From: a bacterium
GTDB taxonomy: Bacteria > Patescibacteriota > Dojkabacteria > B142 > OLB20
Direction of reading: 5' to 3'
Assembly (NCBI GenBank): GCA_029567095.1
Contig: JAKQLP010000058.1
Location: 1-38,976 of the forward strand
Length of the DNA: 38,976 nt
Position 1 is the first letter of the stretch. Every line of letters starts with the position of its first letter. Both the position numbers and the translations under genes were made by a program. The notes under the pieces are model-generated. The model did no database searches. It had not been told where the DNA came from and worked only from the letters and a program-made list of their open reading frames with translations. Shown piece after piece: positions 9,374 to 20,330 of the stretch.

Positions 9374-10421
9374 TGCTTAATGGATCAATAGTTTTAGGAT
9401 AATTATCATACCAAACAAACCAATAGATTGGGAAGATTGGGTAAGATTTTGAACTTTGATCGATTAATTGAACTTGATTACCAAGTTTATTTAATGTAAA
9501 GATTTGACCGGAGACATTGAATTCAAAGGAGCCATCTGTTTTTAGATCAGTATGAAAGGGGACTTCATTGATTAAAAAGGCCCAAATCAGCTTTTTTGCT
9601 TCATATTCATTACTATAGAACTCAACATCTTCGATGACTTTATTATTACTCCTATACTCCTCAAATGGCTTAGAAGCATAATCTAATCTAAACCCTGTAT
9701 CATAATTCATATATTGAGCATCAGGGTAGGAAATCAACGCTTTAGATAAAGTGGAGATCTCAATTGTAGTAATAGGCTCTAGGTAAGCCCCAATGAGAGA
9801 TCCCACTAAAACATTGCCATCTAATTGTGACCAGAGTGATTCAGTTTTAGAATCAAATAAAAGGTCTACATTTTTATACAATAACCCTGACACACCAAAT
9901 ATTAATTCTTTACCATTCACTTCCCTTAAATAGACTGCATAATGTTCTGAAAGAGGAGAGTATGTAATCAGAAGTGGAGTAGTCCCGTACATATCGTTTA
10001 CGGCGATATGTTTTTCCAGGATTTGTCTTGGATAGACTCTTACTATTTCATTGTATTTAACTATTAGAACAGGATCATCAATTGGAGTACAAATTGAAAT
10101 ATCTTCTCCTTCACTGAATCTGGGATTTTCAACTGCAGGTATTTCATTTTTGGATAATGATGTCTGGAAAAGTTCTGTCTCGACATTAATAACACTTAAT
10201 TGCCTTACCGTTTTTAAGGTAGAAGTATCTAGTGTCAATACTTCTTCAGCTGGGGTCATAGCGCATAGAAAGGTATTATCTGTAGTTTTTCTGCTACCTT
10301 GATTTACAAAGGTAATTGCAAAAAAACCAATGGCCATAAAAAAGAATATGAGACTTATCTGCTCAAAATTCTTAGCCATCCGCTTATAACTGTTATTTAT
10401 TACCTGAAGAATATTAGCCAT
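9366..10421 (-). CDS. Membrane-anchored DUF3179 protein
   Basis: 351 residues. One membrane segment lies near residues 24-40, and the rest is extracytoplasmic. The DUF3179 family is recognised from PIDDPVLIVKYNEIVRVYPRQILEKH, with its PLLITYSPLS strand, GVSGLLYKNVDLLFDSKTES and LWSQLDGNVLVG motifs. The family's biochemical role is not established. The position where many members carry a Cys (YCPLC-like) reads TYSPLS here, so a metal or redox role through that Cys seems unlikely. It abuts the sortase gene with no gap and overlaps the cyclophilin gene, so all are probably co-transcribed and act at the cell surface. Confidence 0.75.
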   Translation of the reverse strand: MANILQVINNSYKRMAKNFEQISLIFFFMAIGFFAITFVNQGSRKTTDNTFLCAMTPAEEVLTLDTSTLKTVRQLSVINVETELFQTSLSKNEIPAVENPRFSEGEDISICTPIDDPVLIVKYNEIVRVYPRQILEKHIAVNDMYGTTPLLITYSPLSEHYAVYLREVNGKELIFGVSGLLYKNVDLLFDSKTESLWSQLDGNVLVGSLIGAYLEPITTIEISTLSKALISYPDAQYMNYDTGFRLDYASKPFEEYRSNNKVIEDVEFYSNEYEAKKLIWAFLINEVPFHTDLKTDGSFEFNVSGQIFTLNKLGNQVQLIDQSSKSYPIFPIYWFVWYDNYPKTIDPLSNE

Positions 10422-13362: not shown

Positions 13363-13819
13363 CTTTTTTAATGCGCTCTATTATGGAAGTAGTTGATACT
13401 TCATTATACTGTTTTAATTCAACAAGCTTAAAACCATTATTACGCGCTATCTCCATTTTATTATCTAATCCAGGATCTTTAGGTGTGACAAACAGATTAA
13501 CTAGATTGATCTTCCCGACAAAATCCCTTATTTCTTCCCAAGAGTTTTCCCATGGTAATAGATAATCAATATAGCTTATTGCACTAAGGATTGTTAACCG
13601 GTCCTGCAATGAATAAATAGGCCGATCACTTCCTTTTCTTGCAGCAATTGCTATGTCGTCTAAGACAATAACTAATAGGGGTATTTGTGGAGAGTGTGCT
13701 TTGGCTTGTTTAAGAAAGTCAATATGACCAGCATGAACAAGATCAAATGATCCAGTCACTAAATTAACCTCCTGATTCTTGAACAGAACCAAAGCCTCAT
13801 CTCTTTTTATTATCCGCAT
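13343..13819 (-). CDS. Cytidylyltransferase-like nucleotidyltransferase (RfaE C-terminal type)
   Basis: 158 residues from the preferred ATG at 13819-13817 (MRIIKRDEALVLF); the frame is open 11 codons further upstream. The nucleotidyltransferase signature GSFDLVHAGHIDFLKQA carries the HxGH motif. A second motif region appears at ARKGSDRPIYSLQDRLTIL, and STTSIIERI closes the fold as in RfaE/HldE C-terminal domains. These enzymes join a nucleotide to a phosphorylated sugar or polyol, such as ADP-heptose, CDP-glycerol or FAD-type reactions. The exact substrate is unclear. It overlaps the stop of the double RNR gene by 10 bases. The envelope glycosyltransferases elsewhere in the window could use its product. 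Confidence 0.75.
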   Translation of the reverse strand: MRIIKRDEALVLFKNQEVNLVTGSFDLVHAGHIDFLKQAKAHSPQIPLLVIVLDDIAIAARKGSDRPIYSLQDRLTILSAISYIDYLLPWENSWEEIRDFVGKINLVNLFVTPKDPGLDNKMEIARNNGFKLVELKQYNEVSTTSIIERIKKDAKESK

Positions 13820-16800
13820 TTTGAATAACCACAGGACCGGCAAAGTATACAACCCTCTGCATATTCTAGATCACTTCCACATTCTGGACATTCGAACAAA
13901 TCTCCAAATTCATTGGTCTTTGAATATTTGTCCTTAGATTCATCCTTAACTTCTTCAACAATAGGCATAACTTCCTCAACAATAACAGGTTCTTTACTTA
14001 ACTCAGGCTTAGGCTCATTTTTAGGACCTTCGGGTAATAGTTTGATTTGCTGTTCTACTAGTTCTAAGTGTTTTTTTAAGATCTTGGCAACAGCATCAGG
14101 TACTGAGTAGACGATCATACCTTTGTTCAAAGTCGGGGTAGATGTTCTTATGCCTTGTAATTGTTTAACTATCATTATGGGCATTATGCCTGAGCGCAGG
14201 GACATGGAGATAAGTCTACCGAGTGCTTCAGTATATCCAGCTGAAAAACTTCCACTTTTGCCTAAATTTAAAAAAACTTCAAAAATCCCTTTATCATCTG
14301 AATTAATGGTGACATAAAGATCTCCCTGCTCGGTTTTTACCTCATAGGTCTTACCACTTGTGAATTCACCTCTATGTCTGGGCTCCAGTGTGTTACGAGG
14401 CATAGCGATGCTAACTTGTTCCTCTTTTTTCTTTACATCTTTGGCAGTACCTACCTGTAAGGCCGGATCCTTGCTACCATCTCTAAATATTGTAATTCCT
14501 TTGCATTTGAGATCATATGCAAGAGTATAGATCCTCGCAATATCCTGCCAAGTAGCAGTATTAGGAAGATTTATCGTTTTACTAACAGCGCTATCGATAT
14601 ATTTTTGGAAAGCAGCTTGAATCCGAACGTGATCTTCAGGATCTATCTCATGGGTAGTTTGGAACACATCAACGATAGATGTGGGGATTTTAAAATCAGA
14701 TGCTAATTCATTTAAATGCTTTCCTGCTGAAATATTATGCAAGAACTTATCATTGTAAAAGCCATAAGATTTACTTACTTGCTCGATCAAGGGATCGATC
14801 ACCTCCTGATCAGCTCCACCCATACTGTTCTTCCTTCTATAGCCCAAAGCAAAAATAGGTTCAATTCCTGGATTACAATTGGCAACTATAGAAATTGTTC
14901 CAGTTGGCGCAATAGTTGTAACTCTGGTATTTCTCATGAACTTCTTGCCCTGAGTTGCCCAAGTTGACTTTTTAAATTCTGGGAAATTACCTTTTTCCTT
15001 ACCCAACTCTTCAGAAGCTTCGTGAGCCTTTTTCTGAATGAATTTCATAACTTCTTCAGCTACAATGATCGACTCCTCGCTTCCATAGCGAATACCCAAT
15101 TTAATTAGCAGATCAGCAAATCCCATTATGCCTACACCAACATTTCTAGTTCTTTTGGTCATATCTTCAATCTCTTTTATAGGGTAATGGTTTATTTCAA
15201 TAATATCATCTAGAAAGCGAACTGCTACTTTAGTAATCTTAGCCATTTCCTCCCAATCAATACTATTCAATCTCGCGCTTACTTCCTTGCTCATTAATTC
15301 AGGATCTGCAATTAAAGGAAATCCTTTAACGAATTTACTTAAATTAATATGTCCAAGATTGCAGGTCTCAAAGGGAATCAATGGCTGTTCACCGCAAGGA
15401 TTTGTGGCATCCATTGTGCCAAGAGCAGGTGTAGTGTTTCCTTTCTCAGCAGTATCCAGAAAATACATCCCAGGATCACCACTGGTCCAGGCATGTTTTG
15501 CTATCTTCTCAAATAATTCTCTTGCTTTTACCGTCTTGTAGACATGCCCATCATGAGGGTCGATCAGATCCCAATCATTATCGGCTTTGACAGCTTTCAT
15601 AAATCTATCAGTAGCACCAACTGAGATATTGTAATGAGTTATAGAGGTTAGATCATCTTTAGAATTAATGAATTCTTCAATATTTGGGTGATCAGCATTT
15701 AAAATTGCCATAGATCCTAATCCTCTCCCACCTCTTCCTCTAATAGTATCCTGAGCCCGATTATACATTTTTAGATACTCTACAGGACCTGCGGCAAATT
15801 CTCCTGTTGTGCTCACTTTAGAAAAAGAAGACCTGATTTTACTGAAATTAAAACCAGTACCCACACCTCTTCTTAGACATTGAATATTCCAATTTAGACT
15901 TTGGAATATGGAATCAATAGAATCATTAATGGGAAGCACTAGACATTTTGAAAGTATAGTATCCTTACCCATACCCGCCCAGATCAAAGTACCACCGCAA
16001 TAAAATTGGCCGTTGTTCATTGCTTGAAAAAAGATCTCGGAATATTTCTCTCTTTCTTCAGCTTTTTCAGCACTGGCAATATATGCTGCAATTCTACGCC
16101 ATAGTTCTTCAGGCGTTTCCACAACTTTACCATTATCAGATTTATTCAAAGCTCTTTTAGCTAACACTTCCAGAGCATTAGGAGTCAATTCATGTTTGAT
16201 TACCATATTTTCGTCATTTTTTTCAGGTTTGGATTCGATATTTTTTAATACTTGATCAGTTTTAGAACCATCTCGATAAATAGTGATGCCCTTGCATCCG
16301 TTTTCCCAAGCTTGAATATAGGCACTGTAAACATCACTGATCTCACTGTTTTGAGATAGATTAATGGTCTTACTTACAGCAGCGTCAACGCTTTTTTGAG
16401 CAGCAGCTTGCATTTTTACATGCCATACTGGGTCGATCTGATGAGTTGTTACGAATATTTTATATGCTTGTTCAGGTAAACCTTTTATTCCATCTAACGA
16501 CCCTTTATTCTTAGCAATTTTCTGCATCACTTCATCACTATAGAAACCATGTTTTTTAGCGAATTGTTCGAATTGTTTATCAATATACAGCAGGTCTTGT
16601 TTATTGACCTTACCCTCATCCTGATAAAAGCTTGATCTTTTATATACTAAGGAGAATATCGGCTCAATTCCACTACTCACATCAGCAACCAAACTAATCG
16701 TTCCTGTAGGAGCAATTGAGGTCATAGTAGCATTCCTGACCTTTAATCCTTTTTTATCCCAGATACTGCCTTTAAATCCTGGAAATACACCACGCTCCTT

Positions 16801-18060
16801 GGCAAGTTCGATCGACTCTTTTATTGATTCGTCCTCAATAAACTTCATGATCTTAGCCATCAATTTAACTGCGTCCTCGCTATCATAAGCTATTCCTAAT
16901 TTAAAAAGCATTGAACCAAAACCCATAACACCTAACCCTAATTTCCTAGTGCTTCTCACTTCATCATTGATCTTTTGAAGAGGGAACCTACTAAGATCGA
17001 TCATATTCTCAAGCAGATGGATCCCTTTCCTAATAGATTCAGATAATAGCTCCCAATCCAATTCCACTTTATTATTCACCTCCCTAACATGAGAGGGTAA
17101 TACTACAGAGCCCAGATTACATGATTCATATGCTCGCAAAGGCTCTTCACCACAAGGATTAGTGGCTTCTATTATTCCAAGTTCCGGTGTAGGATTGGCT
17201 TTCTGAGCCGTGTCTAAGAAAAATAGACCAGGATCAGCTGATTCCCAGGCTAGTTTACATATTTCATTGAATATCTTTCTAGCCGATAATGTTTTAACAA
17301 CTTCTTTAGTACGGGGATTAATTAGATCATAATCTTCATCATTTCTGACCTTGTTCATAAAGTCATCTGTTATTCCTACGCTGATATTAAAATTCCTGAT
17401 TGTCTTATCTTGTTTTTTAAGATTGATAAATTCAATGATATCCGGATGATTTACATTAAGTATGGCCATATTGCCGCCACCTCTTTTTTTACCTTGTAGT
17501 ATCTGATCAAATGCCTGGGAGAAAGTCTTAATAAAGTGAATAGGACCGGCAGCAACGTTGGGAGTACCACCTACTGAATCTCCTTTGGGCCTAATTGCTG
17601 AAAAATTAAAACCAGTACCGCCATTGTTCTTCTGAACAAGTGCGGCTTCTTTCATGACTTGAAAGATCGATTCCAAACTGTCCTCGATAGGCAAGACAAA
17701 ACATGAAGAAAGCTGTCCCGTCCCGTCAATGTTATTTCCTGCCTCATAAAGTACTCTGGAGCCTGGTAAAAAACGATTAGCAGCCATGACGTTATAGAAT
17801 TCCTTAGCAAGTTTCAAAACAGCTTTTGTTTTTCTAGGAAGCGCGCCTTTAACATATTTAGCATCAATGGCAGCTATTGTTGAGGCTACCCTCCAGAACA
17901 TCTGTTTAGGAGTTTCGATCACATTAGAATTTTCATCTTTAAGCAGATGCCTTTTCTTCATGATCTCCAAGGAATTTCCAGAAAAATTGGGCTCAATCAG
18001 TTCTGAGGGTATATCCTTAAGTTCTATTAAATTATCATTTCTATTATTCATTGCTGCCAT
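13810..18060 (-). CDS. nrdJ: Fused two-module class II (B12-dependent) ribonucleotide reductase
   Basis: 1416 residues, against about 700-850 for most NrdJ proteins, because two full catalytic barrels are joined. Module 1 (about 30-605) has C120, then N301-P-C303-G-E305 with partner C314, and the APTGT loop at 450-454. Module 2 (about 625-1200) has C706, N887-P-C889-G-E891 with C900, and APTGT at 1051-1055. The middle Cys of each set is the expected thiyl-radical site and the outer pair the redox cysteines. A TSCPD-type domain (about 1235-1335) follows, then an acidic linker, then a Cys-rich tail from C1391 (CPEC, CILC, CRSC, SKCG). The enzyme makes deoxyribonucleotides in the cytoplasm using adenosylcobalamin. 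It starts 17 bases after a third RNR module gene. Confidence 0.93.
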   Translation of the reverse strand: MAAMNNRNDNLIELKDIPSELIEPNFSGNSLEIMKKRHLLKDENSNVIETPKQMFWRVASTIAAIDAKYVKGALPRKTKAVLKLAKEFYNVMAANRFLPGSRVLYEAGNNIDGTGQLSSCFVLPIEDSLESIFQVMKEAALVQKNNGGTGFNFSAIRPKGDSVGGTPNVAAGPIHFIKTFSQAFDQILQGKKRGGGNMAILNVNHPDIIEFINLKKQDKTIRNFNISVGITDDFMNKVRNDEDYDLINPRTKEVVKTLSARKIFNEICKLAWESADPGLFFLDTAQKANPTPELGIIEATNPCGEEPLRAYESCNLGSVVLPSHVREVNNKVELDWELLSESIRKGIHLLENMIDLSRFPLQKINDEVRSTRKLGLGVMGFGSMLFKLGIAYDSEDAVKLMAKIMKFIEDESIKESIELAKERGVFPGFKGSIWDKKGLKVRNATMTSIAPTGTISLVADVSSGIEPIFSLVYKRSSFYQDEGKVNKQDLLYIDKQFEQFAKKHGFYSDEVMQKIAKNKGSLDGIKGLPEQAYKIFVTTHQIDPVWHVKMQAAAQKSVDAAVSKTINLSQNSEISDVYSAYIQAWENGCKGITIYRDGSKTDQVLKNIESKPEKNDENMVIKHELTPNALEVLAKRALNKSDNGKVVETPEELWRRIAAYIASAEKAEEREKYSEIFFQAMNNGQFYCGGTLIWAGMGKDTILSKCLVLPINDSIDSIFQSLNWNIQCLRRGVGTGFNFSKIRSSFSKVSTTGEFAAGPVEYLKMYNRAQDTIRGRGGRGLGSMAILNADHPNIEEFINSKDDLTSITHYNISVGATDRFMKAVKADNDWDLIDPHDGHVYKTVKARELFEKIAKHAWTSGDPGMYFLDTAEKGNTTPALGTMDATNPCGEQPLIPFETCNLGHINLSKFVKGFPLIADPELMSKEVSARLNSIDWEEMAKITKVAVRFLDDIIEINHYPIKEIEDMTKRTRNVGVGIMGFADLLIKLGIRYGSEESIIVAEEVMKFIQKKAHEASEELGKEKGNFPEFKKSTWATQGKKFMRNTRVTTIAPTGTISIVANCNPGIEPIFALGYRRKNSMGGADQEVIDPLIEQVSKSYGFYNDKFLHNISAGKHLNELASDFKIPTSIVDVFQTTHEIDPEDHVRIQAAFQKYIDSAVSKTINLPNTATWQDIARIYTLAYDLKCKGITIFRDGSKDPALQVGTAKDVKKKEEQVSIAMPRNTLEPRHRGEFTSGKTYEVKTEQGDLYVTINSDDKGIFEVFLNLGKSGSFSAGYTEALGRLISMSLRSGIMPIMIVKQLQGIRTSTPTLNKGMIVYSVPDAVAKILKKHLELVEQQIKLLPEGPKNEPKPELSKEPVIVEEVMPIVEEVKDESKDKYSKTNEFGDLFECPECGSDLEYAEGCILCRSCGYSKCG

Positions 18061-18077
18061 GCTAATAGTTTTAAAAA

Positions 18078-19856
18078 TTATTTATTTAAATTTAATACTT
18101 GCTGATCTCTGCTTTTATCACGATATATGGTCATTCCTTTAAGTTTAAGATCGCTTGCTAAAAAGAATGCTTTTTTAATATCGTTTTTGGTAGCAGATTC
18201 AGGGAAATTAATAGTTTTACTTACTGCATTATCAGTATGCTTTTGAAAAGCTGCCTGAGCTTTAATATGCCAGGAAGGATCAATATCAAATGCAGTTACA
18301 AATACTTTTTTAATCCTAGCTGGAATTTGTTTTATGCCTGCTAAAGTTCCTTTGGCAACTATTTCCTTCATTGTTTGCTTATCGTAAAGCCATTCATCCT
18401 TTAGTTTTTTCTCAAGATATTTATTTACATAAACAAGCTCTGTATCACCCATAGTTTCCATATTCTTTCTGCTATAACCTAGAGCAAAGAAAGGCTCAAT
18501 ACCTCCATTACAATCAGCTAAGAGAGAAGTTGTGCCATTGGGAGCTATAGTTGTAACAGTTGCATTACGCATATGCTTGTATCCTTTAGCTTGCCAAAGT
18601 GACCCCTTAAAATTTCCAAAGTCACCTCGCTCGCGTCCTAATTTCTGAGATTCATCATGTGAAATCTCTCTAATGAATTTCATAATCTTCTCAGCTAAAG
18701 CTAAAGCTTCATCACTGTTATAGGGGATCTCTAAAAGATAAAGAAGATCGGCCCAGCCCATTACACCTAAGCCAATTTTACGATTCCCGTATTTAACTAT
18801 TTGTTCGATTTGAGGCAATAAATGCCTGGTTATTGTAACTGTATTATCTAAAAATCTAGTGGCTATTCGCACCACAAATTCCATTCTCTTCCAATCTATC
18901 TTATTTGCTGGATCAGTCTTATCATTCAATTTGGTATCGATCACAAACTTATTTAGTACGATAGAACCTAAATTGCAAGCTTCATATGGAAGCAAAGGCT
19001 GCTCGCCGCATTGATTTGTGGCTGTCATTCTACCGACATTAAGCGTGGGATTGTGGCGATTTATCTCATCAATAAATATGAATCCAGGTTCTCCACTTTT
19101 ATAGATACTATTAACAATGAGATCCAATAATTCATTAGGATTTACCTTCTTGTATATCTTTCCATCATGAGTCAGTGGGAAAAATGTATCTTCCTTTAGT
19201 GCTTTAATGAATTGATCTGTAATAGCAACAGAAATATTAAAATTAGTGAGTTGTGAATAATCATGCTTGGCAGTAATGAATTTTTCAATATCAGGATGAC
19301 CAATGTTTAATATTCCCATATGCCCAGCATGACGAACAGCACCTCGATTCATAATGACTTCGGATGAAAAGTCATAGAGCCTCATGAAAGAAATTGGTCC
19401 ACTTGCTTCTCTGCCAGTTGATTTAACAACAGACCCCTCAGGTCTTACTTCACTGAAATCATATCCAACACCAGCCCCCCTCCTATGAAGAATTACTGTT
19501 TGAGCAAGAGTCCCATAGATAGATTCCAAACTATCTTTGATGGGCATAACATAACAGGCAGCAACAACATCTTCCTTACCCCGATCAAGTAAAGGCATAC
19601 CTGATAGGAATTCCAGATTAGCTTGTATCTCATAGAAATCGCTTTGAATTTTAGCCAATTTCTTCTCATCAGGAACTTTATATCCTTTCTTTTTATCCGA
19701 GAGATCTGTTTCTGCTTTAATCATGAACTTAGAAATTCTTTCAAACATCTGCTGTGGAGTTTCCACTGGCTCTCCTTTTTTATCGACTTTTAAATAGCGT
19801 TTAGAAGCTATGATAAGAGCGTTTTTACTGAAATTGGGGACGATTTTAGAGCTCAT
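18078..19856 (-). CDS. Single-module class II ribonucleotide reductase
   Basis: 592 residues forming one NrdJ-like catalytic module, without TSCPD domain or Cys-rich tail. The N-terminal VETPQQMFERI segment resembles the starts of both modules of the neighbouring fused protein. Active-site residues are C101 (AACYVMP), N281-Q-C283-G-E285 and C294 (EACNLGS). The usual Pro of NPCGE is Gln and the PTG loop reads PNG (IAPNGTTS), so it is the most diverged of the three modules, yet all radical and redox cysteines remain. It ends with LKGMTIYRDKSRDQ, the same place where the other modules end. It may pair with the fused protein or work alone with another reductant. It sits 5 bases after nrdR and 17 before the fused gene. 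Confidence 0.9.
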   Translation of the reverse strand: MSSKIVPNFSKNALIIASKRYLKVDKKGEPVETPQQMFERISKFMIKAETDLSDKKKGYKVPDEKKLAKIQSDFYEIQANLEFLSGMPLLDRGKEDVVAACYVMPIKDSLESIYGTLAQTVILHRRGAGVGYDFSEVRPEGSVVKSTGREASGPISFMRLYDFSSEVIMNRGAVRHAGHMGILNIGHPDIEKFITAKHDYSQLTNFNISVAITDQFIKALKEDTFFPLTHDGKIYKKVNPNELLDLIVNSIYKSGEPGFIFIDEINRHNPTLNVGRMTATNQCGEQPLLPYEACNLGSIVLNKFVIDTKLNDKTDPANKIDWKRMEFVVRIATRFLDNTVTITRHLLPQIEQIVKYGNRKIGLGVMGWADLLYLLEIPYNSDEALALAEKIMKFIREISHDESQKLGRERGDFGNFKGSLWQAKGYKHMRNATVTTIAPNGTTSLLADCNGGIEPFFALGYSRKNMETMGDTELVYVNKYLEKKLKDEWLYDKQTMKEIVAKGTLAGIKQIPARIKKVFVTAFDIDPSWHIKAQAAFQKHTDNAVSKTINFPESATKNDIKKAFFLASDLKLKGMTIYRDKSRDQQVLNLNK

Positions 19857-19861
19857 AATTA

Positions 19862-20311
19862 TTAATTTTCTAAATTAGTTAAGGCTGATTTAAAATCAGC
19901 CAAATTATTAAAATCTTTATATACTGATGCAAACAAAAGATAACCGATCTTATCGATTTTAAGTAGCCCTTTTAAAACCATATCTCCGATCTGGGTGCTT
20001 TTAACATAATTACTTTTACCGTTTAACAGTTTTAATTCTATTTCACTAACTAATTCATCAATTGTTTCATCAGCTATCCTTCGCTTCTTAACTGCTGTAA
20101 GAATTCCCTTTTTAAGCTTATCTCTGTCAAATTCTTCAACCTTGCCGCTTCTTTTAACAACATACAAAGATAGAGTCTCGATCCTTTCGTAAGTAGTGAA
20201 TCGTTTCTTGCATTTAAGACATTCTCTTCTACGCCTAGTTACAGGCTTATTACAGCTATCACGCTTATCAACAACCTTGGTATGTTGGTTATGACAAAAA
20301 GGACAATTCAT
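19862..20311 (-). CDS. nrdR: Transcriptional repressor NrdR
   Basis: 149 residues. The canonical start MNCPFCHNQ is chosen (ATG 20311-20309); a TTG two codons upstream would add two residues and overlap a putative operator. The N-terminal zinc ribbon has CPFC and CLKC with the basic stretch VTRRRRECLKCKKRFTTYERIE. An ATP-cone follows at about 47-137 (YVVKRSGKVEEFDRDKLKKG). NrdR binds paired 16-bp boxes and represses ribonucleotide reductase genes when its ATP-cone holds dATP. It is the first gene of the RNR operon, and two box-like sites lie immediately upstream, so autoregulation of the whole operon is likely. Confidence 0.95.
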   Translation of the reverse strand: MNCPFCHNQHTKVVDKRDSCNKPVTRRRRECLKCKKRFTTYERIETLSLYVVKRSGKVEEFDRDKLKKGILTAVKKRRIADETIDELVSEIELKLLNGKSNYVKSTQIGDMVLKGLLKIDKIGYLLFASVYKDFNNLADFKSALTNLEN

Positions 20312-20314
20312 ATA

Positions 20315-20330
20315 CAATCAGTGGTATTGT
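20315..20330 (-). promoter_or_regulatory. NrdR-box-like site 2 (proximal)
   Basis: Read on the minus strand: ACAATACCACTGATTG. It matches the distal box at 12 of 16 positions. It fits the general NrdR consensus only weakly on its own (about 7 of 16). It ends 3 bases before the nrdR ATG and covers the predicted transcription start. Confidence 0.5.

Follow-up and report, generated by a model that had tools for sequence, protein, structure and literature searches.

The DNA analysed here (the window, 38,976 nt) is contig C49 of a draft genome (G000) of 1.04 Mb in 143 contigs that is 95% complete, the nearest named relatives of which are Candidatus Dojkabacteria / WS6. On its minus strand nrdR is followed by the gene for a 592-aa class II ribonucleotide reductase (RNR) chain and then by that for a 1416-aa chain of the same class, with intergenic gaps of 5 and 17 nt respectively. 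We call the 592-aa chain module A, and the N- and C-terminal halves of the 1416-aa chain modules B and C. Both open frames lie where the preliminary description of this DNA had placed them on the minus strand, and neither contains an internal stop. The features of the locus are as follows.

19862..20317, minus strand: nrdR, RNR transcriptional repressor (zinc ribbon and ATP-cone; Pfam PF22811 and PF03477)
18078..19856, minus strand: module A, 592-aa class II RNR chain (Pfam; A-clade in the trees; AlphaFold)
19317..19376, minus strand: module A loop 2, residues 161-180, ..EVIMNRGAVRHAGHM
13810..18060, minus strand: fused chain B-C, 1416 aa (single stop-free frame; fusion recurs in nine relatives)
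16243..18003, minus strand: module B, residues 20-606, NPCGE, without a cysteine-rich domain (Pfam; B-clade)
17470..17523, minus strand: module B loop 2, residues 180-197, FSQAFDQILQGKKRGGGN
16204..16242, minus strand: B-C linker, predicted disordered (AlphaFold model; a Ham1-like domain at the equivalent site in another lineage)
14458..16203, minus strand: module C, residues 620-1201, NPCGE (Pfam; C-clade)
15712..15765, minus strand: module C loop 2, residues 766-783, YNRAQDTIRGRGGRGLGS
14065..14346, minus strand: TSCPD (IscU-like) domain, residues 1239-1332 (Pfam PF12637, E 2e-20)
13813..13899, minus strand: C-terminal cysteine-rich zinc-finger domain (CRD; six cysteines, nearly invariant among relatives)

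By Pfam each chain has the all-alpha and barrel domains of RNR, the 1416-aa chain twice over, and PF02867 matches each of A, B and C; no ATP-cone is matched in either A or B-C. The best NCBIfam matches of the two chains include the B12-dependent NrdJ_Z and PRK08665. The gene nrdR is the first of the presumed operon, and this gene order is repeated in relatives. A scan for NrdR boxes gave strong matches only in three related genomes (G002, G005 and G095) and none upstream of the operon in the window, so that it is the gene order that points to its control by NrdR. In other genomes NUDIX and dCTP-deaminase-like genes lie between A and B-C, or beside A, fitting a nucleotide-pool operon.

The B-C fusion and the kinship of its modules

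The three modules are 39-42% identical to each other in pairwise comparison, and no direct DNA repeat of at least 24 bp is shared among them. Module A together with a fused B-C is present in nine other assemblies, among whose named members are WS6 OLB20, WS6 OLB21 and several Dojkabacteria MAGs. Four of these (G001, G002, G003 and G005) belong to the same family as the window, G006 and G007 to two more, and G011, G018 and G024 to a fourth. In a tenth, likely case (G095) B and C are apparently fused across an assembly gap. The recurrence, the divergence of the modules and the lack of a repeat together show that the fusion is genuine, and not an assembly join of two copies as the preliminary description had considered. 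Viral copies of the fusion were also sought and rejected, as each of 80 viral loci has one single-module RNR frame.

Other Patescibacteria carry adjacent A, B and C genes that are not fused (G123 and G070), and in two further genomes (G090, a WWE3 genome, and G196) separate adjacent A and B genes are accompanied by additional NrdJ paralogues. A, B and C each form a clade of their own in an IQ-TREE phylogeny (SH-aLRT 97, 98 and 99 as bipartitions), with B and C as sisters, and a FastTree phylogeny of 141 modules agrees on these clades. Since each clade in the IQ-TREE phylogeny mixes fused and unfused members, it was not the fusion that gave rise to the three module types.

Individual relatives depart from this pattern in detail. 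In WS6 OLB21 (G003, locus L036) the CRD is encoded out of frame, after position 9786, reflecting an error or a lesion. The C module of G070 (L134) contains an in-frame TAA that is either a sequencing error or a real lesion. The B module of G006 (L049) clusters, at a support of 100, with B modules from the family that bears the Ham1-like domain, whereas A and C of the same genome cluster with the family of the window; it is possible, judging by these groupings, that one module has been swapped within the fused gene.

The AlphaFold model of A has a pLDDT of 86.6 and a pTM of 0.90, with a TM score of 0.86 to T. maritima NrdJ (1xje), and that of B-C has a pLDDT of 77.5 with well-folded modules. 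A Foldseek search returned 1xje as the best PDB match for both (TM score of a module of the B-C model 0.82 by target length). Thus a module lacking its substrate or cobalamin pocket, a case raised in the preliminary description, was not encountered; A and B-C both fold like the T. maritima enzyme. The same description had suggested that the fused pair could act as a built-in pseudo-dimer, on which the model does not decide; the pTM of B-C is just 0.53, the linker has a pLDDT of ~30 and the mutual placement of the two modules is not predicted. In one Dojkabacteria family, the fourth mentioned above, a Ham1-like domain (inosine-triphosphate pyrophosphatase family) of ~190 aa is located between B and C in the fused chains (L053-L055; e.g. 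L042:1694-6508, residues 601-787), and from its sequence might possibly place a nucleotide-cleaning domain inside the RNR chain. Since one lineage has room for an entire additional domain in the linker, a tether fits the fusion better than a rigid arrangement, and the B-C fusion looks like a tether.

Active sites, loop 2 and the single cysteine-rich tail

The catalytic residues identified in the preliminary description (C101, C283 and C294 in A, C120, C303 and C314 in B, and C706, C889 and C900 in C) are all correctly numbered; in each set the outer two are the beta-A/beta-F redox cysteines and the middle one is the thiyl cysteine. The asparagine and glutamate of the N-x-C-x-E motif are residues 281 and 285 in A, 301 and 305 in B, and 887 and 891 in C. 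In T. maritima numbering C134, D141, R171, N320, C322, E324 and C333 are conserved in all 43 of the A, B and C modules sampled. The specificity site retains its D141/R171 pair and a basic residue equivalent to K158, i.e. D108/R138/R125 in A, D127/R157/K144 in B and D713/R743/R730 in C. The finger loop is NPCGE in B and C and NQCGE in A, where NPCxE is usual (PMC9669993). The side chain of S91 is absent in A and C and usually kept in B. Codons compared within two pairs of related genomes indicate strong constraint on A, B, C and the tail, all of which have very few amino-acid replacements against synonymous change that is close to saturation; for L048/L051 the Nei-Gojobori dN/dS does not exceed 0.02 in A or B, synonymous sites being otherwise saturated. 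Conservation in the sequences therefore supports three catalytically intact class II modules. The description of all three as complete holds for the catalytic barrel, but the TSCPD domain and the six-cysteine tail occur once, on C.

Loop 2 differs between the modules. At the position of T. maritima Q203 glutamine is found in all 16 B modules and in none of the 15 A or 12 C modules; the residue is R, E, I or N in A, and G, T or D in C. The substrate-latch arginine (R207) is present in all 43. Within the window B has Q189 and R193 at these positions, A has R171 and the latch R175 in a loop that is one residue longer than usual, and C has G775 and the latch R779. The loops of A (NRGxxRHAGHM in Dojkabacteria) and of C (GRGGR[GQ][LM]GSM) are conserved within their own clades, which argues against simple decay. 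In no case were A and C seen without the glutamine-bearing B, save in G004, whose contig ends inside A.

In T. maritima NrdJ Q203 points to CDP or UDP with dATP bound (PMC3267527). Replacement of the equivalent residue in the E. coli enzyme (Q294A) led to loss of CDP and UDP reduction with retention of activity on ADP and GDP, and the R298A variant was inactive (PMC4728125). The loop 2 glutamine is probably missing from some RNRs (PMC4728125), and is thus not a firm defining feature of the dimeric type of NrdJ. Alignment shows that NPCSE-type class II and class I enzymes that are apparently the sole PF02867 RNR in several related drafts lack it, so that its loss need not abolish reduction of pyrimidines. 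It also tells against a split of specificity that the losses of glutamine correspond to few evolutionary events. The divergence of loop 2 suggests a division in which B would be capable of acting on pyrimidines while A and C would be biased towards purines; on sequence grounds, and taken alone, we regard this as possible, at rather less than an even chance. The preliminary description had offered the third module as an enzyme of different specificity. Loop 2 lends that idea some backing, and the split itself is what we infer from it.

The CRD and TSCPD domains are found solely on C. The chain of A stops three residues past QVLN, and B passes directly into the linker; both end after the barrel, so neither has a CRD. 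The six cysteines of the domain (C1391, C1394, C1404, C1407, C1410 and C1415) are nearly invariant in relatives, and their spacing is +3,+10,+3,+3,+5, compared with +3,+10,+3,+3,+6 in the NrdJd of S. nassauensis (PMC5704485). The proposal for the latter protein is a zinc site made of four cysteines, with the pair matching C1404/C1415 relaying electrons (PMC5704485). A CRD added separately did not restore activity in S. nassauensis (PMC5704485), so that sharing of a CRD would need true contact between subunits. A CRD encoded by a separate gene does not occur in the window, where it is part of C, and was found only in one relative (L136:1986-2222), where a stand-alone protein of 78 aa, with the class II CRD motif at its end, is encoded directly upstream of an unfused B; this small protein matched no Pfam family. 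The single CRD, the divergence of loop 2 and the unfused sets in other genomes were all absent from the preliminary description.

A further type of NrdJ in CPR genomes (L041:2010-4211, L132:1-1795, L133:10184-12250, L141, L143 and L146) usually lies near another NrdJ. In L041 and L133 an N-terminal ATP-cone was observed for this type; its phosphate-binding loop reads PPSS instead of APTG, and the latch arginine is replaced by tyrosine. Its activity is questionable. Paired adjacent anaerobic NrdD genes of ~620 and ~720 aa, both with MCCR, occur in other families of the same class (L254, L255, L256 and L257 in G410, G412, G012 and G413), with a third NrdD elsewhere in G410 and G412; these pairs show that class III RNR has multiplied in parallel. 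A 1341-aa frame in G410 that might have been a class III double-module fusion is really two frames parted by a stop. In DPANN-type archaea (L079:8668-10683, L090:8608-10674 and L091:8668-10686) there is a tandem NrdJ pair in which the second copy has DPCGD for NPCGE, and in two of the three cases (L090 and L091) also lacks both redox cysteines. To judge by these substitutions the second copy resembles a pseudoenzyme that partners an active class II RNR, and NrdJ partners with a regulatory role therefore probably exist.

A proposed hetero-oligomeric enzyme and its alternatives

Searches of G000 found neither NrdD nor NrdB (PF00268), so we reject a sharing of the work with other classes of RNR, and A and B-C are probably the only RNR of the cell. 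An adenosyltransferase that forms AdoCbl (PduO- or CobO-type) is present in 10 of 10 relatives that have the system, one of them only partly assembled, and adenosyltransferase genes adjoin the unfused arrays of L132 and L133; none was found in G000, a draft that is 95% complete. On such circumstantial grounds A, B and C are predicted to use adenosylcobalamin.

We lean somewhat towards a hetero-oligomeric class II RNR with three paralogous modules, one shared CRD and divided specificity, that is probably the sole RNR of the cell. It would be an AdoCbl-dependent enzyme expressed from one nrdR-A-BC operon, in which A is separate and B and C form one chain. With AdoCbl each module would form a thiyl radical of its own and reduce nucleotides. 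Because the CRD is on C alone, we propose that it would re-reduce the oxidized active-site disulfides of all three modules within the hetero-oligomer. By analogy with the published cross-talk of CRDs, which is the mechanism that we envisage for re-reduction of A and B, the single CRD of C may serve both. The fusion would hold B close to this CRD, and A would join B-C in a hetero-oligomer via the usual NrdJ dimer or tetramer contacts. B, having kept the loop 2 glutamine, would recognize CDP and UDP, while A and C, where it is replaced, would favour ADP and GDP. The full arrangement, in which the choice of substrate is split over dedicated modules of one hetero-oligomer (pyrimidine for B, purine for A and C) with one CRD for all, is put forward tentatively, and is on balance rather doubtful.

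The modules could instead be three independent isoenzymes, i.e. homo-oligomers that each reduce all four substrates, the fusion being incidental. The catalytic and effector residues are all intact in each module, and RNRs lacking glutamine at the Q203 position are apparently the sole RNR of other genomes. A and B would then be re-reduced by a small thiol, by thioredoxin working on the active site itself or by an unknown partner; NrdJ proteins without a CRD occur in many lineages, and the S. nassauensis NrdJd without its CRD is active with DTT (PMC5704485). However, NrdJd without a CRD has been encountered solely in company with a gene for a CRD-bearing one (PMC5704485). The three-module set is moreover kept together across many genomes, and loop 2 differs between the modules while being conserved within each. 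We therefore consider independent isoenzymes unlikely.

It is still less probable that one module, most likely B, is the main catalyst, with A and C retaining catalytic residues and serving chiefly as allosteric or structural partners. The unusual NQCGE finger loop of A, its atypical loops and the missing S91 side chain in A and C would agree with such a role, for which the DPANN-type pairs with a degenerate second NrdJ provide a parallel. Yet unlike those degenerate archaeal copies, all sampled A and C modules have invariant radical, redox and latch residues. Lastly, the 143-contig state of the draft could bring to mind an assembly or duplication artefact as the source of the 1416-aa frame, but this is effectively ruled out by the fusion in independent assemblies of at least four families, the mere 42% identity of the modules and the absence of a DNA repeat.

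Comparison with known ribonucleotide reductases

RNR is the standard example of a single active site that is switched among four substrates by effectors. The A, B and C set would allow a direct test of whether specificity can be hard-wired in each module, and of whether neighbouring modules of a working enzyme are served by one CRD. The set shows, too, that extremely reduced genomes can enlarge a core enzyme, and need not shrink it.

The preliminary description knew of no system with this layout, and we likewise found none in open-access papers (subscription journals lay outside the scope), nor any fused, tandem or CPR class II RNR there. The words 'fusion', 'tandem' and 'Patescibacteria' are absent from two recent family-wide RNR surveys (PMC9669993 and PMC9531940).

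The nearest precedent for a pseudo-dimer is the NrdJm of Lactobacillus leichmannii, where one chain has its own effector-site surface. NrdJm mimics the interface by an insertion in loop 1 of one module, whereas the modules of the window keep dimer-type helices instead; Pfam does not match the insertion domain (PF21995) in either window chain. The domain was detected in another protein of L136.

Among described enzymes the split NrdJa/NrdJb and certain NrdJd pairs come closest. As in the split NrdJa/NrdJb of Pseudomonas aeruginosa, a CRD is not present on every catalytic chain, so that in both systems reduction would have to cross between chains. In NrdJa/NrdJb one catalytic chain is parted from its CRD, while here the CRD is on one of three catalytic modules. 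The paired NrdJd proteins of some Frankia and Alphaproteobacteria are similarly paralogous chains with a CRD on one of them (PMC5704485), but they are two unfused chains of subclass NrdJd, for which neither fusion, nor a third copy, nor divergence of loop 2 is described (PMC5704485).

The modules share with T. maritima NrdJ (1xje, 3o0q) the fold, the catalytic residues, D141/R171 and the basic residue at K158, together with the architecture of loop 2 and a C-terminal TSCPD domain with a zinc finger. In the T. maritima enzyme each chain has one module and its own CRD, in contrast to the three paralogous modules found here, two of which are fused, with one CRD and with the loop 2 glutamine lost from A and C.
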